From the NCBI GenBank assembly GCA_009784725.1, contig WQXS01000017.1, positions 1-42,517 on the forward strand: 42,517 nucleotides of DNA. Direction: 5' to 3'. The DNA comes from Oscillospiraceae bacterium (GTDB taxonomy: Bacteria; Bacillota; Clostridia; Oscillospirales; Oscillospiraceae). Below are positions 2,893 to 39,158 of this stretch, piece by piece; position 1 is the stretch's first letter, and the number at the start of each line of letters is the position of its first letter. The notes under the pieces are model-generated. The model searched no databases and had not been told where the DNA came from. It was given only the letters and a program-made list of their open reading frames with translations. The position numbers and the translations under genes are program-made.

Positions 2893-2938
2893 CTTCTATC
2901 AAAGGTGAAACTTCGTTGAAAAATAATGCAACTTTGTA
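2893..2938 (-). promoter_or_regulatory. LytTR/AgrA-type operator-promoter A
   Basis: On the minus strand TACAAAGT (2938-2931) and AACGAAGT (2917-2910) form direct repeats 21 bp apart. Nine nt later comes a -10-like GATAGAAG (2900-2893). There is no good -35 hexamer, as expected for an activator-dependent promoter. The geometry is identical to the site between agrC and agrB. It points leftward at the SEC-C and RHS remnants. Confidence 0.7.
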
Positions 2939-2965
2939 GTAGTGGCATCGTTTTGACTTGTTGTA

Positions 2966-3006
2966 GAAAAAACAGGAAGCTTCAATGATGAAAGAAGCTC
3001 CTGTTA
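2966..3006 (-). terminator. Rho-independent terminator ending the 14.7-3.3 kb minus-strand genes
   Basis: Read on the minus strand, AACAGGAGCTTC is followed by a 10-nt loop and GAAGCTTCCTGTT, pairing with one bulge, and then a T-run (TTTTTTC). It lies downstream of the 64-aa ORF and immediately upstream of promoter A, so it separates the two transcription units. Confidence 0.65.
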
Positions 3007-3156
3007 AAAATAAAAGAGGTTATATTTTGAGTATTATCAACTTCAACGTTGAGTAAATCAACACGGTAAGTATATTTGATTATAAATAACGGAATCTATT
3101 AGTTTTGAAAGCGAATTGAAATAAGTAGGAATCAAACTTTTAAACGAATAAAATGT

Positions 3157-3246
3157 TTAGTTTTGGCATTGTGGACATCTCAACTCATATGTCCCATTGT
3201 CATGCCAACGACTGTCAACACAATAGTTGCGACATTTATGTTTCTT
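3157..3246 (-). pseudogene. C-terminal zinc-ribbon-like fragment
   Basis: The minus-strand frame ending at 3157-3159 reads KHKCRNYCVDSRWHDNG, then TYELRCPQCQN and a stop. It has two CxxC-like pairs (C-x3-C and CPQC) about 17 residues apart, like a small zinc ribbon. A stop codon lies directly upstream (3247-3249) and there is no usable start, so it is probably the tail of a degraded gene. It may once have continued the 64-aa ORF, which ends 52 bp upstream. Confidence 0.3.
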
Positions 3247-3301
3247 TTATATAATAGTAATGGAAAAACTTTTACTTACTATAAAATACTCTATTACGTG
3301 C

Positions 3302-3496
3302 TTACTGCGTTGGGATTTCTTCTGGCAATAATAAAAGATTTCTCATCCATTCTGGGAAGTCGGAATTGTCGATGTCGATGTCTATGACCTTCAATTTTTC
3401 AAGATTTTGCGTAATAGGTCGGGGTTCATAAGAATAACTGTAAGAAACCGCTTTTCTTTTTGTGTCGATTTGATAATGATTTAAATTCTTACCCAT
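3302..3496 (-). CDS. Small hypothetical protein (64 aa) with a SYSYSY run
   Basis: The ATG at 3494-3496 has GGAGGTG about 7 nt upstream. It overlaps the end of a 17-codon ORF (3489-3542) by a few bases, so translation is likely coupled. The product starts MGKNLNHYQIDTKRKAVSY and has a low-complexity SYSYSYEPRP stretch. An IDIDID-like repeat (VIDIDIDNSDFPEW) and a hydrophobic LLLLPEE near the end follow. There is no signal peptide. I do not recognise the family. Size, repeats and position at the end of a radical-SAM gene set make a modified-peptide precursor conceivable, but the sequence does not prove it. Confidence 0.4.
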   Translation of the reverse strand: MGKNLNHYQIDTKRKAVSYSYSYEPRPITQNLEKLKVIDIDIDNSDFPEWMRNLLLLPEEIPTQ

Positions 3497-3542
3497 TATC
3501 AGACACCTCCGCCAAGCTTCGTTTTACAAACACTTTTTTCAT
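3489..3542 (-). CDS. 17-aa leader-like peptide
   Basis: TTTAAGGAG lies 6-7 nt before the ATG at 3540-3542. It is one of the strongest ribosome binding sites in this stretch. The peptide is MKKVFVKRSLAEVSDNG and its TAA overlaps the start codon region of the 64-aa ORF in another frame. It could be a coupled leader peptide. Alternatively, the two ORFs could be halves of one protein separated by a frameshift. Confidence 0.4.
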   Translation of the reverse strand: MKKVFVKRSLAEVSDNG

Positions 3543-3667
3543 TTTATTCTCCTTAAATTGAATTCTTTATTGGCATCTTTACTACTTCATTACATATAGC
3601 ACGATAGACGTTTTATTGGTTATCTCCTACTCTCAAGGCTATATCTTATTCTGTTGAAGCACTGTCA

Positions 3668-12048: not shown

Positions 12049-12067
12049 GATAGCAACCCCTCTCTTT

Positions 12068-14427: not shown

Positions 14428-14440
14428 TTAACCGATCCTT

Positions 14441-14725: not shown

Positions 14726-14745
14726 ATAGCTCCTCCCGCCATTCC

Positions 14746-14774
14746 AGTATAGCACACCGTCAAAGTAGTATCAA
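14746..14774 (-). promoter_or_regulatory. Sigma-A promoter of the XRE-radical SAM operon
   Basis: On the minus strand TTGATA (14774-14769), a 17-bp spacer and TATACT (14751-14746) are followed by the GGGAGGAG ribosome binding site of the XRE gene. An ATGAC half-site lies next to the -35 box. Confidence 0.7.
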
Positions 14775-14842
14775 TACATTATGACAAATAATATTCCTTT
14801 TAGTCATGAGATTCATCGAGTAATGACATAGCCTATATTTAA

Positions 14843-15358: not shown

Positions 15359-15407
15359 TTTTATCCTCCAAACTATCTTTCTTACACGTAGCAATGTCTG
15401 TGTTCAA

Positions 15408-15925: not shown

Positions 15926-16234
15926 TTAAAAATTCATAGCAATAACGAAAAAACAAATTATTCCAATGAAGAAAGTTATTCCTGTTAAGATGCAACCTGT
16001 AATAAATAGTAGAAGCCTAGTTTTACAATTATTACCAAGCAAATATGTCTGAATAATCATGAAAAATAATCCCAAAAATAAAAATACAATCAGAAGTATA
16101 TTTGGATAAGTCATTAATACACTTGTTGGTAAAGATAATAAAATCAAAACAGCAATAATACCTAAGGTAATGCTTATAATTGAGTGTAAAAGTATTTTTT
16201 TTATCATAACAATCATCCATCTTGTCTTAGCCAT
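15926..16234 (-). CDS. Small membrane protein, probable immunity protein of the RHS toxin
   Basis: The product has three hydrophobic segments (HSIISITLGIIAVLILLSL, NILLIVFLFLGLFFMII, LLLFITGCILTGITFF) and a basic N-terminus. The ATG at 16232-16234 overlaps the RHS stop codon by 8 bp, which argues for translational coupling. Starts at 16216 or 16207 are also possible, as no strong ribosome binding site is seen. A small membrane protein encoded directly after a toxin C-terminus is a common immunity arrangement. It would protect against a toxin acting at or across the membrane. This is inference from position and topology. Confidence 0.6.
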   Translation of the reverse strand: MAKTRWMIVMIKKILLHSIISITLGIIAVLILLSLPTSVLMTYPNILLIVFLFLGLFFMIIQTYLLGNNCKTRLLLFITGCILTGITFFIGIICFFVIAMNF

Positions 16235-19200
16235 TACAATGGTCAACTCTTGTTACTGTATGGTTATTGAGGTTGATAAACACTAAATAATCTTCTCCTG
16301 TCATGAAAAGCCAATTCATACTAGGATGCCATGTGCCTCTATGTGTACCTTCGTTCAACCCATCAAGCAGTAATCGTTCTACAACATCCTCAATTCCTAA
16401 AATTAAATATCCTTTTTCTTCTGCATAATTAAAAGCCTCTACATGTGTAACGCTCGATTCTTTGCTTAACCCTAGTCTATAACCCACCCCATTATTCCAA
16501 AGATCCATAAGAGTATCTGAGTCAAAATCCGCAACTACAACACTCCTTGAATCATTATGGGGATGAACACTTCCCAACCTCTCTAAACCTTTCAACTCAT
16601 GCCCATTTCCGACAAAAAGAGCAACTTCGTGAGAAATACCTCTCGTCATATTATATGTCCATGTGAAATGTCGATATGCATCAGGTCGATTACCAATTGT
16701 TGATGGATAGTTATGTTCCCTTGCAAACCCTATTGCCTCACTTCTTGCATTATACGCATACCTCCCTGCAGTAACAGCTGACGAAAAATTAAATTCCTTC
16801 CACACTTCTGTAAAAAAACTAACATCATCAGCACGTCTTGCAGCTTGCTGAGCTTCATACTCAAATTTTTCAACATCTGGCACTATAGGTGCTGTGCATG
16901 GAAATATCGCTGCTTTCCCATCAGGGTCAATAAACTTAATAGGACTATTCCAACAGTACAAATACTGATTAATCGTTAAAGGAACAGCAACTGTTCCCTT
17001 AACGATATCAACACCGTTAAACCTTCCCGTCTGTGGCAGATACTCCCTAGCTTGAGCAAAGTAAGTGCCAGCAATGATGTCGGTGGTGTAACCTGTGTAG
17101 CCGAATGGCTGTTCAACTCCTTGATTGCCGTAGAAATCACTTCCGAACTCATCGTAGCCGTATGAATCGATAATTGCACCTGAGCTATCAACATACCTCA
17201 GCGGCGAGCCAAGCTCATCTTGCAGGTATGCATTGCTGTCAGAGAATGCGACGTTGCTGTCCCACGTGAAGCTTTGGGTGTTACCATTGTCACTCATCTG
17301 CAATAGGTTGTGATATTGCTTGGTCTGGTCTAGAATATATGATATATGCCTCGTCGGATTAAGTGCGTCGGCTGTGTTGTTAGTGATTTGTTTACCGACC
17401 CTGAGACCTAACCCGTTGTAGTCGTATTGCGATATTTGACCAATTGCATTGGTTGCTTTCGTCAGCCTATTCAGCGGACTGAACTCATAAGTATTCCGTA
17501 TATTACCATTTTCAAGTATTTGTGTGAGGTTGCCACGCTTATCATAGCTAAAGCATTGCTCGATACCGGCTGTATCAGCAGATGAAATGAGTTGATTAAG
17601 TGCGTTGTACTGATATGATGTTTTAACGTTTCTGTCTACTAAGAAACTCCGGTTGCCGAATGCATCATAAGTAAATGACTTTACCTGCTCACCATCTTTT
17701 GAAACCCCTATGAGCCTTGATAATGCATCATAATCATACGTATACTTACCACTCTCTTCTTTAAGACCACGCCTTTGCTTCTCAATACCCACCTTATTAA
17801 CCATGTTGTCATATGAATATATGTACTTATCAAGTATACCATCATTATCACTATGTGCAAGCTCTGAGAGTAACCCCATATCATTGTATGAGTATTTCGT
17901 GCTGACACCACTTGAGAATACTTTATCACTGAGCCTGCCATTTAAGTCATACGAATAATCTACCTTGCTCTCACTATTTGTCAAGGATTTCAGACGTAAT
18001 ACATCATCATATACATATTCAGCAACCTTACCGTCAGGATACGTGATACCCGTTCTCTCACCCTCAGAGCCGAATGTATACTGAACTTCATTGCCGTTAT
18101 GGTCTGTTACTTTCCTTGCTCTGCCAAGCTCATCAACATCAATTGATGTAATACCAAGCCAGTCTTTGACTTCTGTCAATTGTTTTAGCTGATTGTATGA
18201 CAGCTTCACACTGTTACCATCAGCATACACTACTTCTTCAAGCTGGTTAGTTACGTTGTATGCATATTTGGTAAGAAAACCTTCTTTATCCAGCTTACTT
18301 GATACATTGCCTGTTTCATCATAAGAGTACGTCTCGGTATTACCAAACGCATCAATAACTTTCTCAACTTGACTGAGTTGATTCCATTCATATCTTGTTA
18401 CGCGAAGCTTTGAGTTTTCTTCATTCAGCTTAACAGCTTCGTTAAGTTCATCAAACTGCTTTACCTCGAGCAGGTTGCCTAACTTGTCGTAATCATATTC
18501 AGATACATTGCCAAGCGGATCTATGACCGAGACTAAGTTGCCGATCTGCGAATACTTGTACTTTGTAGTATTACCGTTAGCATCTGTTATGCTTGTGACA
18601 TTACCAACTGCATCGTAAGTATGCAACTTCTTCTGCCCTGTATTACTTGATATACAGATTATCCTGTTTAAGCTATCGTACTCATATCTCAACATATACC
18701 CATCATGTGACTTCTTGGATATGATATTTTTGTTCTTATCATAATCATATTCAACATATTTACCATCAGGGTATGTAATGCGTTTGAGAAGCCCTCCAGG
18801 GAGGTAGTCATATTTTGTCTTCCTGCCGATTGAGTCTGTGACCTCGGATATTTGTCCAAGGAGTGTATATGAAAACTTTAGTTCCCTGCTTGACGGGTCT
18901 GTTTGCGATATCTTCTGTCCAACTGTGTCGTACTCAAAGGTAGAGATATTACCCATCGGGTCTGTGAGCTTCGTCACCTGACCCATAAAGTTATACTCTA
19001 CACTAAACTCTGCACCGTCAGGTTCGGTAACTGCACAAACCCTGTCGAGTGCATCATAAGATATCTTAACCTCTTCGCCTTTTGCTCCTGTTACCTTTAT
19101 CCTGTTACCGTTCGGGTCATAGTCATAATGTACGCTTGCACCTTTTGTGTTAACTACTTTCTCAAGTCTGTTAAGTGCATTGTATTCAAAGAATGTCTCA

Positions 19201-26994: not shown

Positions 26995-26996
26995 CG

Positions 26997-27284: not shown

Positions 27285-27320
27285 ATAATCCCTCCTAATA
27301 ATTAAATACGTTTTGTTTTT

Positions 27321-30300
27321 CTACTCGACAAAAGGAAGCTTAAGCCTTTTCACATCGCCGCGCATATATCGGAAGCCTATGTCGGGTGATGGCGTTGCTA
27401 CATTAGCAAATCGAACAGACGGAAAGTGCATTGAGGCATCAATCGGATTTCCAAGAATGACTGCTGATTGTGCACTTCTGAACATCCCGTCTATCTGCCC
27501 GCTCCCTCTGAATTTTGTGCTAAGTGTTGTGGCTACAAAGCAAACGCCAAGTTCAGCAGCTTTCTTCATGAGCTGCGGCATCTCCATAGCCTTTGCCGTG
27601 GTATAATCGATAAACGAATCAATGTCGTCAATAAGTACTAATGCTAGCGGTTGAGATGCAATAAACTCACGCGGTTTCATTCCTGATGCGTTCTTTTCAT
27701 TATCTAACTTTGCTATTTCTTCTGTCAGTTTTTCAACAAAATTCTCAGAATCACTGACAGCACTCATATATGTGATGTTCATACAATCTGCAAAGTTTGC
27801 CAAATCACCTGATTGGCTGTCAGAAAGAAATACAATATTTTCTGCAAACTGACGAAGCAAAATTCGAATTACGTTTGTTTTACCCATCGCAGGGCTTCCC
27901 AACACCAAGTGAAATGGAATTGCCATATCAAGCGTGAGTGGTTCTGTGGATTCAGTGTCAAACCCGATATACGCTACTCGTTTAAATGGAGTAAAATTTG
28001 GCATTAACTCAGCAAAACTTACAGTTTCACCCAGTACACGCACGCCTTTAACTTTACCAACAGTGCTTTTCTCAGCAATATCCTTTATGAGCTCACCGAC
28101 ACCGGCAGCAAACTTCACATCACTTTCATGCTCAATTGGAAGGTAACATTGGGCAACATGCACATCGTCAAGCTTCACAAGTGCACGTCCACGTAATTCG
28201 GGCAATACATAGCTTGACCTGCCAACAAGAGATGTCACATCTGATTTATCAACCATAAACTGTGCCACCTTATTTTTGAAATTCGTGACTATTGAATATT
28301 TCATTGCATTAGCACCTGTGGCAGATGCAATTGTATAAACTCCGACACCAACACCGTCACGAGTAGTTTTTACAAAAAACTCATCAAGCATATCGCGTAC
28401 TTCACGCACAACGTCGAAATTATCCACAAAGAGGAAAATAGCGGGAAGTTTTTCTTCAGCAACTTCATTGTACATTCTGAAGTTAAGCGCATTTTTCTTG
28501 GCAAATAAATGCTTGCGTTGCTTAAGCTCGTCCTCAAACAGCTTTATAAGCTTTTCGAGCTTCTCTGTATCATCAATAGAAAGATAATCAGCAGTATGCG
28601 GTAAGCCCTGTAGTTGAGCAAGTGCTGAATTTCCATAATCGAGTATGAAGAATTTGCACAATACAGGTGAGTTATTTGATGCGAGAGTTAATGCAATCGT
28701 CTGTAAAGTTGTTGACTTTCCGAAGCCGGATGCGCCAAAAACAGCAAAGTTGCCATCGTCAAAGAAATCATGGTCAAACTCTACTTGTTTTTGTTCTTCT
28801 GGAATATCCACTATTCCGAGAGGGACACGGAGCTCTTGGGTTTTTATCGCTCCAACATCATGCCCTGTTTTTATAACGTTTGTTATAATTTTTTCTTCAA
28901 GAGGCGGCAGCCAAGGACGTTCGACAGCTTCTGAACCAAGCTCGTCATATATAGCCTTTACGTACTTGACTGTGATATCAAGTTCTGTGCATTTAGCTTC
29001 TTTGGTTTTATCAACTTCGCTTAAATCCTCGTTGAGAAGTACTCCTTGCCCAAGTTGGTTTATTTCGTATACACGGCTGTCAAAACCACGTTCAATTACA
29101 TCCTCAACATAAGGAGCACCACTCCATGCGGATTGAAACAATTCGTATATTTCATTATTGCCTACTTGTAGGTATGCTCTTCCCGGTTGTGTGATTCGTG
29201 CTGCATCAGGAGTTTTAAGCACTTCGTTAGAATCACTTTCATTTGCGACTTTAAGCGCAAGCTTAAATTTTGAGTTTGACCATATTTGATCGTCAACAAC
29301 GCCGGAAGGCTTTTGTGTTGCAAGTATAAGATGAACACCAAGGCTACGCCCGATACGCGCAGTGGAGACAAGTTCCGCCATAAATTCAGGTTGCTCTTTT
29401 TTAAGCTCCGCAAATTCATCGGAGATTATAAATAAATGCGGCATTGGAAGTGATGTTTCACCTGATTTGAATAATTTTGTGTACTGATTGATATTGTTTA
29501 CGCCAACATTGCCGAAGACAGCCTGACGACGCTTTAACTCATTCTTGATAGATGCAAGAGCTCGCATTGATTCAGAACCATCAAGATTTGTTATTGTTCC
29601 CAGCAGATGCGGTAGCTCTTGAAACAGGTTCGCCATACCCCCACCTTTGTAATCGATGAGCAGAAATCCCACCTCGTGCGGATGGAAGTTTACGGCAAGC
29701 GATAATATATATGATTGCACAATCTCGGATTTTCCCGAGCCTGTTGTCCCTGCGACAAGTCCATGCGGACCATGTGCATTTTCATGCAAATTGAGCGTGA
29801 CAATGTCACCCTTTCCGCGTAACCCCAATGGTACAGCGAGTGATTTATGACACGCATTTTTGCTCCAAAGTTGTAATACCGGTATCTGTTCAGGGCGCTC
29901 TACTCCATATAGTTCAAAAAAACTAACCGCTTCCGGGATCTGAGTAGAAACACCTTGTACATGCTTGAGCGGTGCAAGTCTTCGTGACATTGCCTCAAGG
30001 TCTACACCATCAATTTTTGACATGACCATAGGTTTGTGCGAGAGTATGCCTTCATTCATTATTAATGTAGCATTATCGCCACCGTCAAGTCTGACAACAG
30101 TTTTTATATTGTCAGGTATATTCGCTTGTAAATGTGTAGTATATATAATTGAAAAACCCAGTGATGTATCAGGGCTTTGCAGAAATTCCATTATAGAGTG
30201 GTTTACTATGAGTTTTGGATTATCCGCAATAAATATAAAATGAGGAAGGTATCGGCTATCCTTCTTTGATTCTTCAGATTTTTGTTGACGTTGCTTCATC

Positions 30301-31670
30301 ACTTGCGAAATATTACCTAAAGCTTGGTCACGATGATTTTCTGCCGATATAAGACCAATTACATTGATGGCTTTCACACGACAATGCGGATACCAGCGTA
30401 TCCATTCAAAAGTATTGCGATGCTCCTCTTCAACTAATACAATAATTTCAATATCATGATAGCTATGGTAAAAACATAGTTGGGGTATTATGGTTTTTAG
30501 TTGACGATGTATGTATGATTTTTCACCAAAAATCCCCAGATGAGCATTCTTTAAGTCTATTACTGTCGGCATGTTTTTTATCAGTTTATGCCCGCTCGCA
30601 ATGATGTCCATATCGTCATATAGATGGTCATGCTTTTTCTTTAAGTCCTCATCGGGGGTTTTTACTGTATAACTTGGTTCTGTGTCAGATAATCCAAGTG
30701 ATAATGTCAAGAAGTCGCTGTCACTTGCAGCACGTTCGTAGACACGACTAGTATTTGACATTATCTCATTAGCAATTTCTTTTGTAGATAGATTGTGGTA
30801 TGTAAGAGATTCAATCTGTTTATCTTTGAATTTTTGCAACTCTTTCCGTTTGTCGAGTAAGTAATTACTGTAGCTTTCAACATGCTCTGTTTCTTTCTTT
30901 ATGCGTTCTTTGCGATTTGATATAAATGTGAATATAGAGTTTGCCAAAGTTGCAACCATCATACCGACACTCATAAGCATCATAATACCGCGACCCATGA
31001 GAACGCCCATTGCGATCATCATTCCTGCTGATAGAAGCGGAGGGATTAAAATTTTTATAAACGCACCCTTTTTCTGTTCTTCTTTATCAGGCGGCGCAGT
31101 CAAGGTTACAACCTCTGTCGGCATCCTATGAATTTCACGAGGTGGGCGTTTAAAAACTGGAAACTCCTTATAGCTTGCAGGATTCTGTGTTGCTATGTTT
31201 AACCTCGTTGAGTAGTTCAGGCCTTGAATTTCTATATATCCCTTATGCAGAATAATACGATTACTTGAAGCATAAATGAAATCACCAACTTCTAAAATAT
31301 AATTACCACAGCCGATTTTATTTCCGTTATGATAAACCTTTTCCGAACCTATGACCTTAAGTATATTTTCAGTAAATGTAAAGCTTGCTTTGCTTTCAAA
31401 GAGCTTTATATGGTCACCTTCCATGTTGCCTACACGAACAGGACTTACATTTGTTGTAGAGTAATATTTTGAATCTATACTCACAGCCAGCACATTTATA
31501 TCATCGCCAATATCACAGGGAACATTTAATCCGATTGGCAATTGTGAAACAATAGGCGTCTCAGAATCTAATTTTTTAAAGTTACTCGATGTTATTGGGA
31601 TTTCTAAAGGTAAAACTCCAATTGCAAACTCAAAACATCTATCCTCTGTAAAGATGACTAAACTTTTCAC
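27321..31670 (-). CDS. essC: EssC, FtsK/SpoIIIE-type ATPase of the type VII secretion system
   Basis: At 1449 residues it has the full length of T7SSb EssC. The N-terminal ~180 residues look like paired FHA-type domains. Two membrane segments at about 205-255 follow (FIKILIPPLLSAGMMIAMGV, MLMSVGMMVATLANSIF). Three ATPase modules carry Walker A motifs GTTGSGKSE at about 643, GASGFGKST at about 982 and GSPAMGKTN at about 1260. The first has a DYKGGG Walker B, the second LDYGNS and the third LVLIDDIDSF. The last two are less canonical, as usual. The start is a GTG overlapping the essB stop by 4 bp. It is the motor that powers export of the WXG100, LXG and RHS proteins encoded around it. Confidence 0.95.
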   Translation of the reverse strand: MKSLVIFTEDRCFEFAIGVLPLEIPITSSNFKKLDSETPIVSQLPIGLNVPCDIGDDINVLAVSIDSKYYSTTNVSPVRVGNMEGDHIKLFESKASFTFTENILKVIGSEKVYHNGNKIGCGNYILEVGDFIYASSNRIILHKGYIEIQGLNYSTRLNIATQNPASYKEFPVFKRPPREIHRMPTEVVTLTAPPDKEEQKKGAFIKILIPPLLSAGMMIAMGVLMGRGIMMLMSVGMMVATLANSIFTFISNRKERIKKETEHVESYSNYLLDKRKELQKFKDKQIESLTYHNLSTKEIANEIMSNTSRVYERAASDSDFLTLSLGLSDTEPSYTVKTPDEDLKKKHDHLYDDMDIIASGHKLIKNMPTVIDLKNAHLGIFGEKSYIHRQLKTIIPQLCFYHSYHDIEIIVLVEEEHRNTFEWIRWYPHCRVKAINVIGLISAENHRDQALGNISQVMKQRQQKSEESKKDSRYLPHFIFIADNPKLIVNHSIMEFLQSPDTSLGFSIIYTTHLQANIPDNIKTVVRLDGGDNATLIMNEGILSHKPMVMSKIDGVDLEAMSRRLAPLKHVQGVSTQIPEAVSFFELYGVERPEQIPVLQLWSKNACHKSLAVPLGLRGKGDIVTLNLHENAHGPHGLVAGTTGSGKSEIVQSYILSLAVNFHPHEVGFLLIDYKGGGMANLFQELPHLLGTITNLDGSESMRALASIKNELKRRQAVFGNVGVNNINQYTKLFKSGETSLPMPHLFIISDEFAELKKEQPEFMAELVSTARIGRSLGVHLILATQKPSGVVDDQIWSNSKFKLALKVANESDSNEVLKTPDAARITQPGRAYLQVGNNEIYELFQSAWSGAPYVEDVIERGFDSRVYEINQLGQGVLLNEDLSEVDKTKEAKCTELDITVKYVKAIYDELGSEAVERPWLPPLEEKIITNVIKTGHDVGAIKTQELRVPLGIVDIPEEQKQVEFDHDFFDDGNFAVFGASGFGKSTTLQTIALTLASNNSPVLCKFFILDYGNSALAQLQGLPHTADYLSIDDTEKLEKLIKLFEDELKQRKHLFAKKNALNFRMYNEVAEEKLPAIFLFVDNFDVVREVRDMLDEFFVKTTRDGVGVGVYTIASATGANAMKYSIVTNFKNKVAQFMVDKSDVTSLVGRSSYVLPELRGRALVKLDDVHVAQCYLPIEHESDVKFAAGVGELIKDIAEKSTVGKVKGVRVLGETVSFAELMPNFTPFKRVAYIGFDTESTEPLTLDMAIPFHLVLGSPAMGKTNVIRILLRQFAENIVFLSDSQSGDLANFADCMNITYMSAVSDSENFVEKLTEEIAKLDNEKNASGMKPREFIASQPLALVLIDDIDSFIDYTTAKAMEMPQLMKKAAELGVCFVATTLSTKFRGSGQIDGMFRSAQSAVILGNPIDASMHFPSVRFANVATPSPDIGFRYMRGDVKRLKLPFVE

Positions 31671-32761
31671 TCATCATCCTCCGCTGAGAGAACTTCATTT
31701 AAACGAAGAATCTCCTTTTCAAGACGTTCTAATTCTTCCGTGCGTGCCTCTCCATCACCGGGGGAAATCATAGTTTCATCAATAAATGCGTACTTTCTCA
31801 TATTTGCCCAAAGCAGCAAATCGGGTGAGCCTGTAATATGGGCTATATCAAATGCCTTATCAAACTCTAAACGCCCTATATGAATCCAAAAGTCAAACAG
31901 GATTCCATCTGTCATACGAGTTAAACCCATAAGAATATGTTCTTTTTGCATATCAGTCAGTGCTTCTGTAATTACATAAGCGCGGGCTAAGAAATGGCGG
32001 GTTTCAAACGCCATATCCTCAGGCTCAACATTGCGCAAAGCATTCTGTGAGGCAATATATTCTCCTGCTATATATGCCTGTGATGCTGTTATTATTTGTT
32101 CCTGATGCGGACCATTATAATAAATTGCACGTATTGCAAAAAACGATACACAGATAAGTGCAGCCATGAGAATCGGAATAAGAATGCGTGAAAGAATAAC
32201 ATTATTTTTTGAAACAAGTTTTTTACTCTTTGAAAGCTCTGCTATTTCTTTGTCGTATTCTGCTTCGAGGAACTTTTTAACCTCTGCTACGGACTCTAAT
32301 TTAGATAACTCTAGGAGCAACCTGTTTTTCTTAAATAAGTCAGCACCTCCATTTATAAAATCGACATACTTGTATCTTGTCAACACGTCACCTATAACAG
32401 CCATATACTTTTCCAGAAAAGGTATATCACCGCAGTTAAGGTCGCGTATTAGTATAAAAGGGTACAAGCTCCTATTAACTACTAAGTTATCGAGAGCAAG
32501 GGAAAACGCATAGTCTTTGTGTAAACACTCTAGCTGAGCGATGTTTATTAATAATCGATATTTATCCGTTTTTGGCTTTGATTTAATAGCAGTAGCAAGT
32601 ATCATGCTATCTGATTCAAAATGTAAAGCAATTCCATCTTCAGCTTCTTCTAATGTGCAAGGACAAAGCCCGGCAGCTGAATAACTTAAGAAATCTCGTT
32701 TTTCTCTTGGTATGTGCAGCTCACTATTTTTAATCACACAACATATATTTTTTTCTTTCAT
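31667..32761 (-). CDS. essB: EssB/YukC, type VII secretion pseudokinase membrane protein
   Basis: Residues 1-185 are the cytosolic kinase-like domain without catalytic residues. One membrane helix lies at about 195-213 (ILSRILIPILMAALICVSFF). A helical C-terminal domain outside the membrane is rich in TPR-like pairs (QAYIAGEYIASQNALRNVEP, HFLARAYVITEAL). The order and length (364 aa) match EssB. It is encoded between the YukD and EssC genes, overlapping the latter by 4 bp, the standard order of T7SSb loci. Confidence 0.85.
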   Translation of the reverse strand: MKEKNICCVIKNSELHIPREKRDFLSYSAAGLCPCTLEEAEDGIALHFESDSMILATAIKSKPKTDKYRLLINIAQLECLHKDYAFSLALDNLVVNRSLYPFILIRDLNCGDIPFLEKYMAVIGDVLTRYKYVDFINGGADLFKKNRLLLELSKLESVAEVKKFLEAEYDKEIAELSKSKKLVSKNNVILSRILIPILMAALICVSFFAIRAIYYNGPHQEQIITASQAYIAGEYIASQNALRNVEPEDMAFETRHFLARAYVITEALTDMQKEHILMGLTRMTDGILFDFWIHIGRLEFDKAFDIAHITGSPDLLLWANMRKYAFIDETMISPGDGEARTEELERLEKEILRLNEVLSAEDDE

Positions 32762-32803
32762 ATTCCATATACTCCATTAAATAGTGATTGTCTTTTTTTG
32801 TTA

Positions 32804-33031
32804 CTAAAGTGCGGTTAAGACGTCCCCGTCGTAGATAGCTTCATCATTAAATGTCTTATATGCACTTACAAGTTTTTCAACTTGTTTACTGCGATAATAC
32901 GCAGGTGTCTCTCCTCCTGAAAACTTACCTGACTCGCGAAGCACAATAAGTCCCATGCTTATTTTCTGTTCAGGGTCAATTCGTATATCCGCTTTTTGGC
33001 CATATGCTTCCAGTGTGATGGTTATGTACAC
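32804..33031 (-). CDS. esaB: EsaB/YukD, ubiquitin-fold type VII secretion protein
   Basis: A 75-residue protein beginning MYITITLEAYGQKADIRI has the strand-turn-strand opening of YukD. It ends YDGDVLTAL, as family members do. The start is a GTG with AAAGGA upstream, and the gene overlaps the EssA-like gene by 56 bp in another frame. Such proteins are cytosolic and needed for secretion or effector control. Confidence 0.8.
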   Translation of the reverse strand: MYITITLEAYGQKADIRIDPEQKISMGLIVLRESGKFSGGETPAYYRSKQVEKLVSAYKTFNDEAIYDGDVLTAL

Positions 33032-33506
33032 TTTTGTTTTTTTCCTTTCGCCTTGCTTTTCTCCTCAATGCTATAAGAAACCCAATACCTGCACAAGTTA
33101 CGATAACAGGGATAATAATCCACATTGAAATTTCTGAGTCTTCTTCTACAGACATTATTGTACGCACCTGTACAGGTTGTATAAAAAGCATTTCATTATT
33201 TTCTGCTGCCTTAAACAATGCCACGTTTGGGTCGGTTTTAATAAAAGTATGCTCTTCTTGAAATATAAGTTTTTTCGCTCTTTCTATTTTATGCTCTTGT
33301 CGTTTTTTTCCTGTTTCAATTCGTGCATCAGAATTTTCGCTAAAAAGGTCAATACCCCAGCGTACTGAGAGTGCATCTTGACGCTCTTCTCTTTGTCTCC
33401 TGATTGCTCCTATATCTATTGGAAGGTCAATCGCAATGGCTGTTGCTCCAAAAGCAGTAAGAAGTAATATAGAAAAAACTAATATCAATATTTTTTTCTT
33501 TTGCAT
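32976..33506 (-). CDS. essA: EssA-like type VII secretion membrane protein
   Basis: The 176-residue product has a basic start and a hydrophobic signal-anchor (ILILVFSILLLTAFGATAIA), a polar helical region rich in R, E and K, and a second membrane helix at about 126-148 (MWIIIPVIVTCAGIGFLIAL) followed by a strongly basic tail. This topology, the size and the place between the WXG100 and YukD genes identify it as EssA, whose primary sequence is poorly conserved. Direct sequence similarity is not obvious to the eye. Confidence 0.65.
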   Translation of the reverse strand: MQKKKILILVFSILLLTAFGATAIAIDLPIDIGAIRRQREERQDALSVRWGIDLFSENSDARIETGKKRQEHKIERAKKLIFQEEHTFIKTDPNVALFKAAENNEMLFIQPVQVRTIMSVEEDSEISMWIIIPVIVTCAGIGFLIALRRKARRKEKNKSVHNHHTGSIWPKSGYTN

Positions 33507-33532
33507 TTCTACACCCTTTGCAAGTGATTATT

Positions 33533-33590
33533 TAGTCTATAAATAGTCCGTACCCATATCGCAGCACCTAAGGACACGGACTAAATAGAC
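33533..33590. promoter_or_regulatory. Hairpin between the WXG100 and essA genes
   Basis: AGTCTATAAATAGTCCGT on one side pairs, with a small mismatch, with ACGGACTAAATAGAC on the other. The loop is 20-25 nt. No T-run follows on the minus strand, so it is not a standard terminator. It may stabilise or process the upstream esx message or lower read-through into the machinery genes. Confidence 0.45.
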
Positions 33591-33603
33591 AATGTTGCTT
33601 ATT

Positions 33604-33903
33604 TTAGACTTGATATGCTCGGCTGAGAGTTTGGTCAGTTGATGTGAATTGATCACACGTATTTGTTATGGCACGTGCTGTTTGCTCACACATTTCTGAA
33701 CATTGTTCCAGCACATTCGCTGCCTGACCTTTTGCATAAGCTTCAAACTCATTAGCAGCAGCACCTTCCCATCCGCCCGCACGGACAGCATCGCAAATTT
33801 GGATTAGTTTTGTCCTACATTGGTTAAGTTCTGCAGCCAGAGTATTGCAACCTGTTGCTGCGATACTGAGTTTATCTCGATCTACTATAATTTGTCCTGA
33901 CAT
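33604..33903 (-). CDS. esxA: WXG100 protein (EsxA-like), type VII secreted
   Basis: Ninety-nine residues with two helices around the WxG turn (GGWEGAAA, W45-E46-G47), no signal peptide and a C-terminal helix ending DQTLSRAYQV. This is the standard substrate and structural component of T7SSb systems. GGAGAAT precedes the ATG. It is the first secretion gene after agrD, 50 bp downstream, and thus lies nearest to the quorum-controlled promoter. Confidence 0.9.
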   Translation of the reverse strand: MSGQIIVDRDKLSIAATGCNTLAAELNQCRTKLIQICDAVRAGGWEGAAANEFEAYAKGQAANVLEQCSEMCEQTARAITNTCDQFTSTDQTLSRAYQV

Positions 33904-33953
33904 GATTTATTCTCCTTCATCCATAATATTATTGCTAATTTTCAATTATACTG

Positions 33954-34106
33954 TTATTCAACAGTGAACTTGCTCATTCCTTGAGGTACTTTCGGTTGAT
34001 GGAAATTGAATATGCATACTGCTTGTGCTGATGCTACACCAAGCGACAATGCTATAGCTGTAACTAAACTACAGAGCCACATTAATGCAATTTTATACTT
34101 CTTCAT
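33954..34106 (-). CDS. agrD: AgrD autoinducing peptide precursor
   Basis: This 50-residue ORF begins MKKYKIALMWLCSLVTAIAL, an amphipathic leader. It then reads SAQAVCIFNFHQPKVPQGM and ends in a charged tail. The Cys plus four residues followed by HQP...P is the pattern of clostridial AgrD, as in Clostridium perfringens (CLWFT followed by HQP). The expected signal is a five-residue thiolactone ring on CIFNF with a short N-terminal tail, with HQPKVP onward removed by AgrB. AAGGAGAGAAAGTA precedes the ATG. The gene starts 16 bp after agrB. Confidence 0.85.
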   Translation of the reverse strand: MKKYKIALMWLCSLVTAIALSLGVASAQAVCIFNFHQPKVPQGMSKFTVE

Positions 34107-34122
34107 TACTTTCTCTCCTTTC

Positions 34123-34710
34123 CTAGTTTATCCTTTTGCTTCCCTGATTTTTTATAAAGTTTGCCAGTAGCGATATTGCAACAGTAACATTTCCAAGAGC
34201 TATAGATAGTGCAAATAACTCTTTAGCAAGTATTGTTGTGCAAATTAGTACTGAAAACCCAACAATAGCCCAGCGACTTTTCTTTCTAAACTTATTGCGC
34301 TCTTTATCATCGATTGTTTTATTACTATCATCAGATGGTGCTAATAGAAAAATAAGAGTTATAGAAATCGGAAAACTCAGAAAAATTAAAGGAACGATTA
34401 AATTAATCGGAATGAATTTTGTAATCATTAAGAATGCTATGTACGTCAGTACGAATAAAATGTAGCACCTTAAATGGGTTATGGCATGATAGCCACCAGC
34501 AATTAGTCTGAGAGGAATGAAGCCAACCAGAAAGAAAATGGTGTTCAGCATTGAATCACTTATAATTGCAATAATGAGTATGGTAAGAAAACTTAATATT
34601 GTTGAAAGAAGTATTTCAAAGCTATATTCATAGACTTCTCGATCTTCATCTGAAATGACTTCATGTGAAATAAAAAATGATGATATACTTTTTGACATTC
34701 GGATAATCAT
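34123..34710 (-). CDS. agrB: AgrB, membrane peptidase that processes AgrD
   Basis: The product has about five hydrophobic segments. RLIAGGYHAITHLRCY contains His75 and Cys82, spaced by seven as are the catalytic His and Cys of AgrB. The ATG at 34708-34710 (MIIRMSKSIS) is chosen because GGGGTGA lies just upstream. An ATG ten codons earlier would lie beside the promoter. AgrB cleaves the AgrD C-terminal tail and forms the thiolactone. The gene is the first after the LytTR operator-promoter and heads the operon into agrD and the secretion genes. Confidence 0.9.
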   Translation of the reverse strand: MIIRMSKSISSFFISHEVISDEDREVYEYSFEILLSTILSFLTILIIAIISDSMLNTIFFLVGFIPLRLIAGGYHAITHLRCYILFVLTYIAFLMITKFIPINLIVPLIFLSFPISITLIFLLAPSDDSNKTIDDKERNKFRKKSRWAIVGFSVLICTTILAKELFALSIALGNVTVAISLLANFIKNQGSKRIN

Positions 34711-34750
34711 AAAATCACCCCGTAAAAAAGTTATCATCATTTTTGTTATG

Positions 34751-34796
34751 CTTCAATAGAAGATGCGACTTCGTTGAATAAAAACCCAACTTCGTT
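34751..34796 (-). promoter_or_regulatory. LytTR/AgrA operator-promoter B for agrBD and the type VII operon
   Basis: On the minus strand AACGAAGT (34796-34789), 13 nt, AACGAAGT (34775-34768), 9 nt and TATTGAAG (34758-34751) lie in line. The 21-bp repeat spacing fits a LytTR dimer on one face of the helix. The -35 position has only a weak hexamer. The upstream repeat overlaps the stop codon of agrC. Transcription would start about 40 bp before agrB. Confidence 0.8.
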
Positions 34797-36093
34797 AATT
34801 GGATTTGTTTTTTAGTAAAATTTCAACTGTAAATTTATATGATTCAGAATCATAAATTAAGTAAATATCTCCATCATATTTTTTTGCAATCGCTTTCATT
34901 TGCTCTATACCGAATCCATGACTGCTCTTTTCCTGTTTTACGGTTTTAAAACCTTCAATTATAGGAACAGAGGAATAGTTCTCAATAAGTAATGAAATGT
35001 AGTCAGGCACACTAATAAAATCAAGTTTAATAACTCTTTCAACATCATTGGACCGCAAAATGCCTTCAACTGCGTTATCTAATGCATTTGCAATAAGTAT
35101 AGCTATATCGAACTGGTCGGTATGTAAAGCGTTATCAATTATTATCTTGTGCCTTATATTTATATTATTTGCTTTTGCTTTTTCTATTTTTGCATTTATA
35201 ACTGCATCTATAGGCGGAAAACCTGTGTCAATAATTGTTGCTGTTTTCTTCACTTCGTTATCGATTCCATCGATACGCTCAAGCGCTTCAGAGATTAAAC
35301 CGCTTGATAGTAATCCAGATATTGCTACAAGTTTATCACTAATATTATGCCGAATCGCTTTCACCTCACGCTGTGCAGTATAAAGCTTTTGATAATGTTC
35401 AATTTGCATTTCCAGCCTTAACTGTGATAACTCATATTCGCTTTTATATTGCAATGCTTTTTGCTGATTCCTAATTAAGAACATTGTTATGTATACAAGT
35501 AACAGTGATATGAGAATCGCTATTATACCCAAGGGTGAAGAGTTTATCATATCCGCATTTATTGAATAAATTGATACTAAAAAACAAATAATAATAGATT
35601 GCAACGGCATAACAGCCATTATCACGTTGAACCGATTATTGGTTTGCCTCTTGTAGCCCTTCATTATTGCTCTTAAAAATAACACAATAAAGAGTGCTAG
35701 GAGCTTTGAAATAATCACACCCATCATATATAGCGTTATATTGTTTTGTACTACTTCTATCGGGACTCGAATATAGTTAACAAATACTATTCCTACAAAC
35801 TGCTCCGCTACAAATAAAACTGCCGTTATTATTAAAGTAAATAATACCTTGGATGATATGCTCGATACGAAGAATAGAGTTGTTATAAACATTATCATTG
35901 TCGAAATAGATGCAAGAATAACTGTACTCTGCAACAATAATGTTGAGAATGCATTTATTACAGTGAGTATACAAATAATGACACAACACGTAATATCTTT
36001 TATACTCGTTCTAGTCCAAAATGTTCCGTAGAGTACAATTGCTGCAGTTATTCCAATCAGTGCTCCCAAAGCGTCAATCAACAGTTTTTCCAT
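34795..36093 (-). CDS. agrC: AgrC-type sensor histidine kinase
   Basis: Residues 1-210 hold six or seven membrane helices (for example GALIGITAAIVLYGTFW, IILVYITMFLIRN-type segments). A coiled linker follows, then VKAIRHNISDKLVAISGLL with the phospho-accepting His of HPK10-type kinases. A GHKL domain ends the protein with NALDNAVEG (N box) and HGFGIEQMKAIAKKYDG (G box). The ATG at 36091-36093 is 2 bp after the agrA stop and uses GGGTG in agrA as ribosome binding site. It senses the AgrD-derived peptide and phosphorylates AgrA. Confidence 0.9.
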   Translation of the reverse strand: MEKLLIDALGALIGITAAIVLYGTFWTRTSIKDITCCVIICILTVINAFSTLLLQSTVILASISTMIMFITTLFFVSSISSKVLFTLIITAVLFVAEQFVGIVFVNYIRVPIEVVQNNITLYMMGVIISKLLALFIVLFLRAIMKGYKRQTNNRFNVIMAVMPLQSIIICFLVSIYSINADMINSSPLGIIAILISLLLVYITMFLIRNQQKALQYKSEYELSQLRLEMQIEHYQKLYTAQREVKAIRHNISDKLVAISGLLSSGLISEALERIDGIDNEVKKTATIIDTGFPPIDAVINAKIEKAKANNINIRHKIIIDNALHTDQFDIAILIANALDNAVEGILRSNDVERVIKLDFISVPDYISLLIENYSSVPIIEGFKTVKQEKSSHGFGIEQMKAIAKKYDGDIYLIYDSESYKFTVEILLKNKSN

Positions 36094-36095
36094 AC

Positions 36096-36803
36096 TTACA
36101 CCCTATACTTTACAAGATAAGAGTTATATGCTCTTAGGCAAGACTGCTTTTTTCTTGCACTCATTTCTACTTTTCTGTTACATGTTGTGATTATAGCTTT
36201 GTCTTCAATGCTTTTTATGTATCGCATGTTTATTATCGCATTTCGGTGACACCTTAAAAAACCGTGTGATCGCAAGTCACGCTCATACTCTTCTAATTTT
36301 CCGTTGCATTCTTGCACATCATCTTTACTTCGAAATAACACCCTCCCGTGATATGCTTCAATATATACAATATCACTTATATCAAATGAATGTGTAGTTC
36401 CTTGCCATCTGAAGCTTATGATATGATGTTGGTCTTTATACTTTCTTAGTGCTCTACCGAGAGTTTCGCGAACTCTTTCTGCTGTGATTGGTTTTACAAT
36501 ATAATCGAATGCCTCTATAGTGAATGATTCAAAGACATATTGCGTGTGACTTGTAAGAAATATTATTATTACATCTTTATCGGTCTTTCTTATTGCATGT
36601 CCTGTTTCAATGCCGGACATTCCATCCATTTCGATATCAAGGAAAATGATATTATATGGGTTTTTTATATGTTTAATAATCAGAGCTTCACCGCTTTCTG
36701 ATTCTTCAAGATCATATAATATAAACCAATCCTCGATTTTTGCTAATAGTGTACTAAGTTCTTTTCTCAGCTGCTCATTATCATCACATAATGCAATGCG
36801 CAT
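36096..36803 (-). CDS. agrA: AgrA-type response regulator (receiver + LytTR)
   Basis: A receiver domain (RIALCDDNE, IIFLDIEMDG with phospho-Asp56, FLTSH, DYIVKPI with the conserved Lys) is followed by a LytTR DNA-binding domain from about residue 130. The latter has IVYIEAYHGRVLFRS, GFLRCHRNAIINMRYI and a basic end. The ATG at 36801-36803 is preceded by GGGGAC. Its predicted targets are direct repeats of the WACGAAGT type with 21-bp spacing, found four times in this window. The gene is upstream of agrC, the reverse of the staphylococcal order B-D-C-A. Confidence 0.9.
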   Translation of the reverse strand: MRIALCDDNEQLRKELSTLLAKIEDWFILYDLEESESGEALIIKHIKNPYNIIFLDIEMDGMSGIETGHAIRKTDKDVIIIFLTSHTQYVFESFTIEAFDYIVKPITAERVRETLGRALRKYKDQHHIISFRWQGTTHSFDISDIVYIEAYHGRVLFRSKDDVQECNGKLEEYERDLRSHGFLRCHRNAIINMRYIKSIEDKAIITTCNRKVEMSARKKQSCLRAYNSYLVKYRV

Positions 36804-37106
36804 AAGTTTGTCCCCTTTTTTTTGTCTCAAATTACTATGTTGGTTTTCATCCCTTATCTCAAATGTCGCTTTGATTGTCCACATTTCTTAACCCTACCTT
36901 TCTTAGCTTTCTGGTTTTGAATACAACACATTCTTCAGTTTGTTACATTGACTGCGAAATCGTTTAATTCTCTTTTTTTACATTATTTATATATGAAAAT
37001 GCCTTTATTTGCTGATGTGCAGGCTTATGCTGCAAGGTATAATGACGAATATAACGTTTTGAAGAAGTTGTTACATTGTCTGTTTTTGAATGGAGGGAAT
37101 TTCATA

Positions 37107-37676
37107 GTGCCTACTACACAACCTATACGCAACAAATATCAAGTCCGTGAGTTATCGCAATTCTACCTCAATCGTGGCGAACTTAGAAATTATCTGCTTA
37201 TTATTATGGTTGTTCATACTGCTCTTCGTATTAGTGACCTGCTTCATTTAAAGTGGTATGATGTATATGATTTTAATCGCAATCGACTAAGAGAAAGTGT
37301 ATCTATCACGGAAACTAAAACCCGTAAATCTAAAATTGTGAAGCTCAATAATGCGATATTATAAGCCTTGAACACCTGTATATGTCTAGCAAAGGAAGGA
37401 GATTACTTGTTTAAAAGTCGTAAAGGTGGAAATATTGGTAGAGTTCAAGCTTATCGAATTATTCCTACTGCTGCAGAGGCTCTTGATTTTAACACCAATG
37501 TTTCATGTCATTCTCTGAGAAAGACATTCGGTTATCATGCATGGAAGAGTGGCGCATCTCCAACAGTATTAATGGAAATTTTCAATCATTCAAACTATGC
37601 AATTACTCGAAGATATCTCGGAGTGACACAGGATGATAAGGATGAAGTGTATTGTAAACTCGAAAATGCTTTTTAA
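37107..37676 (+). pseudogene. Small XerC-like tyrosine recombinase interrupted by one in-frame TAA
   Basis: A GTG at 37107 with GGAGGG upstream begins VPTTQPIRNKYQVRELSQFY, a typical start of ~190-aa stand-alone integrases. All catalytic residues are visible: Arg in TALRISDLLHLKW, Lys in ETKTRKSKIVKL, HSLRKTFGYH (HxxR), HSNYAITRRYLG (His and Tyr). A single TAA at 37362-37364 splits the frame between KLNNAIL and ALNTCICLAK. Both halves are in the same phase, so one nonsense mutation explains it. It is read opposite to its neighbours and lies between LytTR promoter C and agrA. Confidence 0.75.
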
Positions 37677-37710
37677 TTCAATTTCTGAAAAGGATAGCAT
37701 ACCCAGCAAA

Positions 37711-37756
37711 AAACTATATACAATGCAACTTCACTGTTAAATAATCGAACTTCGCA
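37711..37756 (-). promoter_or_regulatory. LytTR/AgrA operator-promoter C, facing agrA
   Basis: On the minus strand TGCGAAGT (37756-37749), 13 nt, AGTGAAGT (37735-37728), 9 nt and TATAGTTT (37718-37711) repeat the geometry of site B. It reads leftward, antisense through the broken recombinase and on to agrA about 900 bp away. It would close a positive feedback loop if transcription passes through. Confidence 0.6.
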
Positions 37757-37814
37757 AGGGTATCGCAATTTTTTCCATTTGATCTGCAACAACAGCCTTT
37801 ACGCCAGTGTATTA

Positions 37815-38924
37815 TTAAGAGTTTTCAAGAATTTTCAGAATATGTTGGCTAAGAACAAGGATACTGGCAATAATGGATGCAATTGAAATTAATATTCCCG
37901 CAATACTGCTTAGGTTCAGCGGTCTTCTATCCCGTCGTATTTTCACTGATAAATCAATGTAACGGTGCATATCATCAAATGTAATTTGGTCTTCGCTTTC
38001 ATAAGGGTTTTTTCGTGCAATTGATTCTTCAATCATTTCCTTGTGGACTGCATACACTAAAAACCTGTTTGCTAAAAAAATGTATGATAGAAATAATAAC
38101 AAGAAAAAAGGGAACATCAACCCCAACAAGAGAATTATTGAACTCGAATCTTCATGTAAAACTAAAAATCCAGAATAATTTTGAAAAGCAAGGGCTCTAA
38201 TATTAAAATCTTCATTTAGTATAAACATACCGGAACTTGTAAGTAGTATTATATGCATTAGTAAATAAAGAATTGAGACAACAGAAAATATCACTGATAT
38301 ACGAGATGAAAATATCTTGATTAGTCTAAATTCTTTTGTGTTTGATGGAACAAGCTCATTATATTTAAACTGAGTTAATTCCTTTCTGATCCATAAATCA
38401 AAAATCAATTTCACTACACACAGACAATAATATGAACTGAAATAGTTCAGAAAAAATGAAATTACTAATACTATGACAACAAAAGCACCTTGAATGTCGT
38501 TCTTAATTATTCCATAGTAATATAGAGCAACGATATATAGTACAACACAGCAAATCCATACAATTGTATAAAGAATCTTATATGCAACAGCTAGTTTATC
38601 ACTAATTTCCTCAGATTGCTTCGTATTCGTTTTTTTAGGTCTTATAATATGTATATGCGTATTAAACCTATCAAGAATCAACTTAAATTGCGCAGTACCC
38701 TCAAGACTTTCGAGATTTTTGTTAACTGCAACAACATAAACAGAAGAAGTTAACCAGATTACTATCATTGCTAGTGCAATTATTAAGACAAATAATCCAC
38801 TGTTAATCTCTACAAGAAGACAATATACAACAACAACAATGATACCGGCAAGAATGCTAACTAAAAATGCTGTCGCTGTCCTCATTTTAAAGATAGTTTC
38901 CCCAAAAAATCTTATGATTCCCAT
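37815..38924 (-). CDS. Multi-pass membrane protein (369 aa) under a LytTR-type promoter
   Basis: About seven to nine hydrophobic segments are seen, starting with AFLVSILAGIIVVVVYCLLV and LFVLIIALAMIVIWLTSSVY and ending with IAGILISIASIIASILVLS. A charged cytosolic stretch lies at about 85-115 (RPKKTNTKQSEEISDK). There are no ATPase or protease motifs and no family I recognise. GGAGG lies 12 nt upstream of the ATG. It stands 190 bp downstream of operator-promoter D, so it should respond to the same peptide signal as the secretion operon. Roles in envelope adaptation, immunity or export support are all possible. Confidence 0.65.
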   Translation of the reverse strand: MGIIRFFGETIFKMRTATAFLVSILAGIIVVVVYCLLVEINSGLFVLIIALAMIVIWLTSSVYVVAVNKNLESLEGTAQFKLILDRFNTHIHIIRPKKTNTKQSEEISDKLAVAYKILYTIVWICCVVLYIVALYYYGIIKNDIQGAFVVIVLVISFFLNYFSSYYCLCVVKLIFDLWIRKELTQFKYNELVPSNTKEFRLIKIFSSRISVIFSVVSILYLLMHIILLTSSGMFILNEDFNIRALAFQNYSGFLVLHEDSSSIILLLGLMFPFFLLLFLSYIFLANRFLVYAVHKEMIEESIARKNPYESEDQITFDDMHRYIDLSVKIRRDRRPLNLSSIAGILISIASIIASILVLSQHILKILENS

Positions 38925-39112
38925 AATTTGTCAACACCTCCGCACTGTTGTGTTAGTTTATATCGCAATAAACCTCCTGTAATTATGAAGACATGTAATC
39001 ACCAAAATTTTGTTCACTCACAAAAGCCATTTTCTACTAAAATAGGGATATTTGGACACTATTCTACGCTCATCTCTCCTCCTAAATTATATATAACATA
39101 TTAAAAGAATAT
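38925..39112 (-). other. Leader region of the 369-aa membrane protein gene
   Basis: About 190 nt lie between promoter D and the gene. The region contains TTTAGGAGGAG just before a four-codon ORF (ATG at 39073). Further down, an AGGAGG stands 4 nt before a TTG that would give an 18-codon ORF overlapping the gene start. Either could be a translated leader, but both spacings are shorter than usual. Confidence 0.3.
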
Positions 39113-39158
39113 ATTCTATACACGATGCGACTTCGCTAAAAAAAAGAACAACTTCGTA
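39113..39158 (-). promoter_or_regulatory. LytTR/AgrA operator-promoter D
   Basis: On the minus strand TACGAAGT (39158-39151), 13 nt, AGCGAAGT (39137-39130), 9 nt and TATAGAAT (39120-39113) form the best -10 of the four sites. The run of eight to nine bases in the spacer is nearly pure T. It points at the 369-aa membrane protein gene. Confidence 0.75.

Follow-up and report, generated by a model that had tools for sequence, protein, structure and literature searches.

Introduction

According to the available excerpts of PMC11347149, which define LytTR sites as paired repeats, the majority of LytTR regulators activate transcription from positions upstream of the −35 element. For the operons of LytTR regulatory systems, the accessible sections of PMC6193735 describe 9-bp repeats that mostly lie 12 bp apart and show a strong bias towards a position 10 bp upstream of the −35; they also report poor conservation and divergence among the operon repeats, and an extended −10 at the hdrRM promoter. 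VirR boxes are placed immediately upstream of the −35 in the excerpted part of PMC2838878. For the type VIIb secretion system (T7SSb) of Staphylococcus aureus, excerpts of PMC10765036 describe agr as part of a likely complex control circuit; T7SSb systems in general are described there as often having low or no activity in laboratory monoculture, with their control unclear. Here, we analyze a contig of an Oscillospiraceae bacterium (GenBank assembly GCA_009784725.1, WQXS01000017.1, 42,517 nucleotides, henceforth termed the window) in which four promoter-like sites, S1–S4, accompany a set of agr quorum-sensing genes, a type VII secretion system (T7SS) locus and Rhs genes. We estimate at about three in four the probability that these sites are promoters activated through binding of the neighbouring response regulator AgrA, and that they define a local quorum regulon for the type VII/Rhs island.

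Results

A preliminary description of the window had proposed four minus-strand sites in a single orientation, each with repeats exactly 21 bp apart, a 13-nt spacer and 9 nt to a common box. Direct reading of the sequence confirmed all four, with the following elements:

S1, 2893..2938, minus strand: repeats 2938-2930 and 2917-2909; putative −35 TAGAAG at 2898-2893; putative extended −10 with hexamer TAACCT at 2875-2870; faces an orphan Rhs head
S2, 34751..34796, minus strand: repeats 34796-34788 and 34775-34767; putative −35 TTGAAG at 34756-34751; putative extended −10 TGATAACTT with its hexamer at 34733-34728
S3, 37711..37756, minus strand: repeats 37756-37748 and 37735-37727; box TAGTTT at 37716-37711; TGCTATCCT with its hexamer at 37696-37691; faces agrA across a broken recombinase gene
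S4, 39113..39158, minus strand: repeats 39158-39150 and 39137-39129; putative −35 TAGAAT at 39118-39113; putative extended −10 with hexamer TATATA at 39095-39090; faces the gene of a 369-aa membrane protein

S2 overlaps the 3′ end of agrC and takes the position of a head promoter for agrB, agrD and the T7SS and Rhs genes. The assignment of the other sites to agrA, a membrane protein and an Rhs remnant likewise stands, the remnant being 92% identical over 61 aa to the Rhs head elsewhere in the window. In all four sites the half-sites are GAAGT-like, the 13 nt between the 8-mers are T-rich, and a TATWGAA-like box follows 9 nt further on; the first repeat of S1 is TACAAAGT, and those of S3 are TGCGAAGT and AGTGAAGT. 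Each site thus forms a pair of direct repeats of about 9 bp within the range of 10–13 bp apart: counted as 9-mers, the half-site reads WRCGAAGTY with a 12-bp gap, and the two copies agree at 7/9, 8/9, 7/9 and 6/9 positions in S1, S2, S3 and S4, respectively. The classical LytTR half-site consensus is [TA][AC][CA]GTTN[AG][TC]; judged by eye, AACGAAGTT fits it in part. The repeats of S1, S2 and S4 lie immediately upstream of a −35-like hexamer, at 10 bp, and S3 is ambiguous in this respect. The resulting 9-12-9-10 geometry agrees with LytTR operon promoters as published in the accessible sections of PMC6193735, in line with the earlier attribution of the 21-bp period to LytTR regulators.

One element of the preliminary description had to be revised. 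It took the TATAGAAT box for a −10 element that lacks a −35. We place the box at the −35 position because of a TGnTA element downstream, the TTGAC/TTGAA-type hexamers that relatives carry at this place, and the published LytTR geometry; the most likely arrangement predicted from the sequence is 9-12-9-10-[-35]-17-[TGn -10]. TGnTA, which occurs at 0.6% of positions, is found at an identical offset in S1, S2 and S4, 17 bp beyond the −35-like hexamer, and 3 bp closer in S3. It is very unlikely that the TATAGAAT-like box is instead a −10 for whose missing −35 AgrA on the second repeat substitutes. Its likeness to TATAAT in S3 and S4 and its constant distance from the repeats would fit such a role, as would a −35 partner in S3, TTAACA 16 bp upstream (10/12), but relatives carry TTGACA, TTGACT or TTGAAT there and then TGnTA 17 bp on (4/6 sites in G307, a second species of the same genus, as well as the loci L049 and L051), an offset that also holds in 3/4 window sites. 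At S3 the earlier assignment survives in part, as the box may be a −10 there, but then together with the −35 TTAACA rather than without one. We prefer position 34710 as the start of agrB, since the alternative at 34740, which gives a longer open reading frame (ORF), would fall before the proposed −10.

The repeats alone carry little information. The pattern RAAGTY-N15-RAAGTY occurs 13 times in the draft genome (2,770,608 bases), S1–S4 accounting for four, compared to 69 times for the reversed control, and at up to 1 mismatch the half-site pair occurs 11 times in the window against a shuffle mean of 4.84, a count reached by 4 of 100 shuffles. The half-sites by themselves are weak evidence. With the box included, the draft genome holds four matches at 0 mismatches, none at 1 and six at 2, the reversed control having 17 at up to 2. 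The genome-wide scan that the preliminary description had called for returned not hundreds of matches but four at 0–1 mismatch, all in the window. Across 19 genomes of the genus, nine matches at up to 1 mismatch compare with six for the reversed control; S1–S4 are the only ones at 0 mismatches, and single 1-mismatch matches in each of five other genomes are read as chance. S4, S1 and S3 are identical to S2 at 35/46, 34/46 and 28/46 positions, the next best window position reaching 26 (mean 12.3, standard deviation 3.0, 84,944 positions). When a matrix built from three sites was used to score the fourth, the sites obtained 27.8–38.6 and any other window position at most 14.0. By our own arithmetic, four random sites would fall within one 36.3-kb stretch of 2.77 Mb with p ~1e-5, before the condition of a single strand is applied. 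We rejected nine further loose matches in the same genome, among them short GAAGTTGCTCC tandem repeats on contig C91, and a single match of similar pattern in the viral collection (L034) lies within a phage gene and was read as chance.

Between S3 and S2, and directly behind S2, the window encodes a complete Agr system, with AgrB, AgrD and a LytTR-type AgrA over Pfam or NCBIfam cut-offs and AgrC assigned by its GHKL domain and position:

agrA, 36099..36803, minus strand: 235-aa response regulator with Pfam Response_reg and LytTR above cut-offs; the proposed activator
agrC, 34795..36093, minus strand: sensor kinase with GHKL domain (HATPase_c_5), 47% identical to the G307 protein
agrB, 34126..34710, minus strand: AgrB, E 3.2e-40; no other protein of the genome exceeds the Pfam cut-off for this family
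agrD, 33954..34106, minus strand: cyclic lactone autoinducer precursor (TIGR04223, 31.4 bits, cut-off 19)

The locus is not a LytTR regulatory system in the sense of a regulator with a membrane inhibitor and no kinase, as AgrA has a receiver domain and its gene adjoins a kinase gene. Among solved structures AgrA mainly matched receiver domains, and a scan of viral contigs with AgrA found nothing. The sites could serve another LytTR regulator, or several. Including agrA, the genome holds nine LytTR genes, and contig C75 carries a paralogous agrA′-agrC′ pair (L035, 5805-7899) whose AgrA′ is 45–46% identical to the window AgrA and whose agrC′ encodes an AgrC-like kinase. We consider such ownership unlikely, since neither C75 nor any other part of the draft genome outside the window has a site at up to 1 mismatch, and since two of the sites precede agrA and agrB themselves, likewise in G307. 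The C75 pair in particular was rejected as owner because none of the sites is on C75, a contig that also lacks agrB; cross-talk between AgrA and this paralogue is conceivable. Elsewhere in the genome (C14:10639-14514 and C14:14995-15267, L001), a second full-length EssC (1138 bits) closely precedes a LytTR gene; both T7SS loci of this genome are thus close to a LytTR regulator.

Comparison with relatives shows an equal layout before agrB and, in one sister genome, also before agrA. In G307 the genes agrA-agrC-agrB-agrD-WXG100-EssA-like-YukD-like-EssB-Rhs stand in the same order as in the window, and the contig ends inside the Rhs gene; its WXG100 was recognized by Pfam, and the window WXG100 gave no tblastn match in G307. 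The sequence before G307 agrA reads TTGACA-17-TATGCT and that before agrB TTGACT-17-TACAGT, both with TG; the agrA site lies about 220–300 bp before the gene, according to the start codon chosen. When up to 3 mismatches were allowed, G307 held 22 matches to the motif against 7 for reversed controls, and the four at 0–1 mismatch are those at agrA, at agrB and on contigs C181 and C172. The genes behind the plus-strand sites of C181 and C172 are small and, by eye, mostly membrane or secreted-looking; 2/7 proteins of these contigs are over a Pfam cut-off (a transposase and one DUF6560 protein), and C172 carries an Rhs fragment (E 5.6e-6) and a PD-(D/E)XK transposase gene. On both contigs (L174, 725-853; L175, 1445-1573) LytTR-type sites stand back to back about 50 bp apart, in duplicated cassettes identical at 191/202 bp.

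These duplications raise the question of whether S1–S4 are copies of one mobile promoter cassette that resemble each other through duplication more than through regulator constraint. Three of the G307 sites are near-identical DNA (107/116 and 106/120 identities), S1 is followed by a duplicated 195-bp Rhs head, and over 450 bp 4/6 window-site pairs beat the best of 100 shuffles, in some cases with gapped similarity that extends past the promoter elements. For S2-S3 and S3-S4, however, the score is below that of the best shuffle, and no direct repeat of at least 40 nt joins any two sites (the repeats found were the Rhs head and one other pair). We regard this origin as highly improbable.

L049 and L051, which were retrieved via AgrA from the collection of named genomes, carry TTGAAT-17-TATCTC and TTGAAT-17-TAATTT before agrB. 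In L054, L068 and L073 the corresponding sequence, by eye, is TTGAAA-18-TATACT, indicating that the spacer can be 18. We further compared 36 regions upstream of agrB from two locus sets, leaving out the window's own and dropping three duplicates. Among lags of 12–30, only 21 gave repeats matching at 9/9 (4/36 regions: L134, L142, L144 and L147), and it also leads at 8/9 or better (10/36 regions), the next best lag reaching 3 regions. Repeats with a 21-bp period thus seem to be widespread upstream of agrB in the wider group, although a strong one is missing from the majority of the 36 regions. The cargo behind agr varies: in L049, a metagenome-assembled genome from goat omasum, agrD is followed by four tandem small secreted-looking proteins (12910-14209) behind a similar agr promoter. 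A Butyrivibrio sp. contig (L096, 999-5483) encodes a large Rhs homologue, 33% identical over 1514 aa, with both a LytTR gene and an AgrB gene less than 10 kb away.

In the window, S2 heads a run that continues from agrD into a type VIIb locus, identified by EssC, EssB and WXG100 (TIGR03928, YukC and WXG100, with TIGR03926 below its cut-off), and on to an Rhs gene:

WXG100 protein, 33604..33903, minus strand: Pfam WXG100, 36.2 bits, cut-off 27.3
Two small T7SS-like genes, 32804..33506, minus strand: 176 aa EssA-like and 75 aa YukD-like, both by position; G307 homologues in the same place, 26% and 55% identical
EssB/YukC, 31667..32761, minus strand: Pfam YukC above cut-off; TIGR03926 below its cut-off
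EssC ATPase, 27321..31670, minus strand: TIGR03928, 1402 bits, cut-off 778.4
1858-aa Rhs protein, 16227..21803, minus strand: RHS_repeat E 2.2e-114, DUF6531

The 176-aa and 75-aa proteins have no Pfam match, EssC and the Rhs gene are separated by five genes that reach no Pfam cut-off, and EsaA was not identified at this locus. The Rhs protein, encoded in the S2-headed run, is the likely T7SS cargo. From agrD to 15926, gaps between the chosen minus-strand ORFs are at most 97 bp. Scanning with a terminator consensus gave no candidate on the minus strand of 32700-39400, and in 13500-32700 it gave 12 on both strands against 11.1 expected by chance. With no terminators above chance, a single long transcript for the S2-headed run is plausible.

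The combination of agr and T7SS is rare in the surveyed genomes. Among 400 genomes of the family, AgrB was detected in 18 (E 1e-12) and EssC over cut-off in 29, and among the genomes listed the present one is alone in both sets. The 80 LytTR loci of the named genome collection (flanks up to 10 kb) include no EssB, one weak EssC-like match and three Rhs homologues. An agr-headed T7SS operon is not described in any of the titles listed on type VII secretion with agr, LytTR or Rhs/quorum sensing, in a library that lacks most of the subscription literature.

The genes behind the remaining sites are:

Orphan Rhs head, 2585..2785, minus strand: 66-aa ORF behind S1; its first 61 residues 92% identical to the window Rhs head
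369-aa protein, 37815..38924, minus strand: behind S4; hydrophobic (membrane by eye)
Tyrosine recombinase gene, 36948-37364 and 37368-37676, plus strand: same frame, split by one in-frame stop; between S3 and agrA

The orphan head belongs to a 195-bp copy (2603-2797 versus 21621-21815, 95% identical) that starts at the ribosome-binding site, and the remainder of the Rhs gene does not follow it. For the 369-aa protein, neither Pfam nor NCBIfam gave a match; it was found in its own genome only, among 19 genus and 400 family genomes, and has no match in the plasmid collection. The S4 leader (about 38924-39085) contains two short ORFs: the first, preceded by a strong ribosome site, has four codons (MSVE), and the second, of 18 codons, runs into the beginning of the 369-aa gene; these ORFs possibly exert leader or coupling control. 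The interval of G307 that corresponds to the recombinase is too short for such a gene, and the S1-S3 likeness on the downstream side was too weak for us to keep it as recombinase att sites. At 39177-41962, a MobA/MobL relaxase gene and a helix-turn-helix regulator adjoin the island, which suggests that it may lie in or beside a mobilizable element; as to a simple circle, no direct terminal overlap of the contig was found at seven lengths tried. Genes for an FMN-reductase-like protein and for a radical SAM protein (11509-13204) lie on the same strand between the Rhs region and a gene at 3668-6514 for a 948-aa protein without Pfam match. This protein contains HEYFHYAS, which resembles a zinc metalloprotease motif.

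Discussion

We favour a local AgrA regulon because the four sites are confined to one contig and one strand, each is recovered by a matrix built from the other three, TGnTA recurs at a fixed offset, and G307, L049 and L051 place the same arrangement before their agr genes. Several observations weigh against it. Nine LytTR genes offer alternative binders, the AgrA paralogue on C75 for example. Within the window, the −35-like hexamers match TTGACA at only 3/6, 2/6 and 3/6 positions in S1, S3 and S4, weak hexamers being as expected of activator-dependent promoters and equally of chance; S3 moreover departs from the 17-bp rule, and its rival pair TTAACA-16-TATAGT scores 10/12. The relatives were aligned in the layout comparison by anchoring each row on its −35-like box, and the G307 half-sites are alike in 2–4/9 positions only (9-mer register), having kept their position and a common (G/A)CA. 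The agrA, C181 and C172 cassettes of G307 are, at 107/116 and 106/120 identities, nearly the same DNA, and C181 and C172 each have a divergent site that faces the other way with 2 mismatches and without TG. Among the ten lag-21 regions upstream of agrB, two are copies of a single sequence (L124), and coding DNA accounts for at least three rows (both of L124, and L097). Finally, EssC over cut-off was not reported for G307 (best E 3.6e-35, with 2/9 candidates scored and the draft 90% complete).

Under a local AgrA regulon, AgrB would process AgrD into a cyclic peptide, which AgrC would sense, phosphorylating AgrA in response. AgrA dimers would then bind the repeats and bring RNA polymerase to weak promoters. 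S3 would boost agrA-agrC, S2 would increase expression of agrB-agrD and, with them, of the T7SS-Rhs run that follows, and S4 would drive expression of the membrane protein; S1 perhaps remains from a second Rhs gene that was under separate control. The outcome would be a closed local regulon through which dense populations turn on a contact-type secretion system. Binding, activation, quorum control and T7SS export of the Rhs protein are the steps that we infer here.

A more far-reaching idea is that a T7SS/Rhs island took over agr as its dedicated switch, and that the AgrA promoter became a portable module placed before further Rhs heads and membrane genes, each new cassette joining the regulon, as S1, S4 and the G307 contigs C172 and C181 may illustrate. 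We hold this idea tentatively and think it doubtful on present evidence; the finding of no EssC over cut-off in G307 lowered its odds. If a local regulon is correct, the cyclic peptide would be a chemically simple, testable switch for T7SSb in Clostridia-like bacteria, antagonism would be tied directly to cell density, and 9-12-9-10-[-35]-17-[TGn -10] could be used as a search rule for agr targets in the group.

The sites themselves are ordinary LytTR/AgrA-type promoters of an already known kind; the noteworthy part is the agr-T7SS wiring, and such direct wiring is unusual. At the S. aureus agr promoters P2 and P3, the excerpted text of PMC4227749 describes two direct repeats that directly precede weak promoters and are occupied by an AgrA dimer, as well as positive agr feedback, an arrangement like the one proposed here. 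Unlike in S. aureus, the half-site is WRCGAAGTY, an extended −10 is present, the gene order is agrA-C-B-D, and T7SS genes follow directly after agrD. The spacing between −35 and −10 is 17 bp here versus 18 and 20 in S. aureus, and in the proposed layout the promoter-proximal repeat is centred near −50 rather than near −60. The LytTR regulatory systems of Streptococcus mutans, HdrRM and others, share with our sites 9-bp repeats mostly 12 bp apart, the bias across prokaryotes to 10 bp upstream of the −35, an extended −10 at hdrRM, and autoactivation, as far as the accessible sections of PMC6193735 go. They consist of a regulator and a membrane inhibitor, whereas here a kinase, a response regulator and a peptide are encoded. 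VirR targets are scattered over the Clostridium perfringens genome and not confined to one island. As described in the excerpts of PMC2838878, VirR boxes, which control toxin and other genes, are likewise paired imperfect direct repeats at a fixed place immediately upstream of the −35, but their repeats are described as 7–8 nt apart, according to how they are delimited, and their half-site is a different one. In S. aureus T7SSb, too, quorum sensing is linked to secretion according to the excerpted part of PMC10765036. Unlike there, an AgrA-type promoter itself heads the T7SS run in the window.

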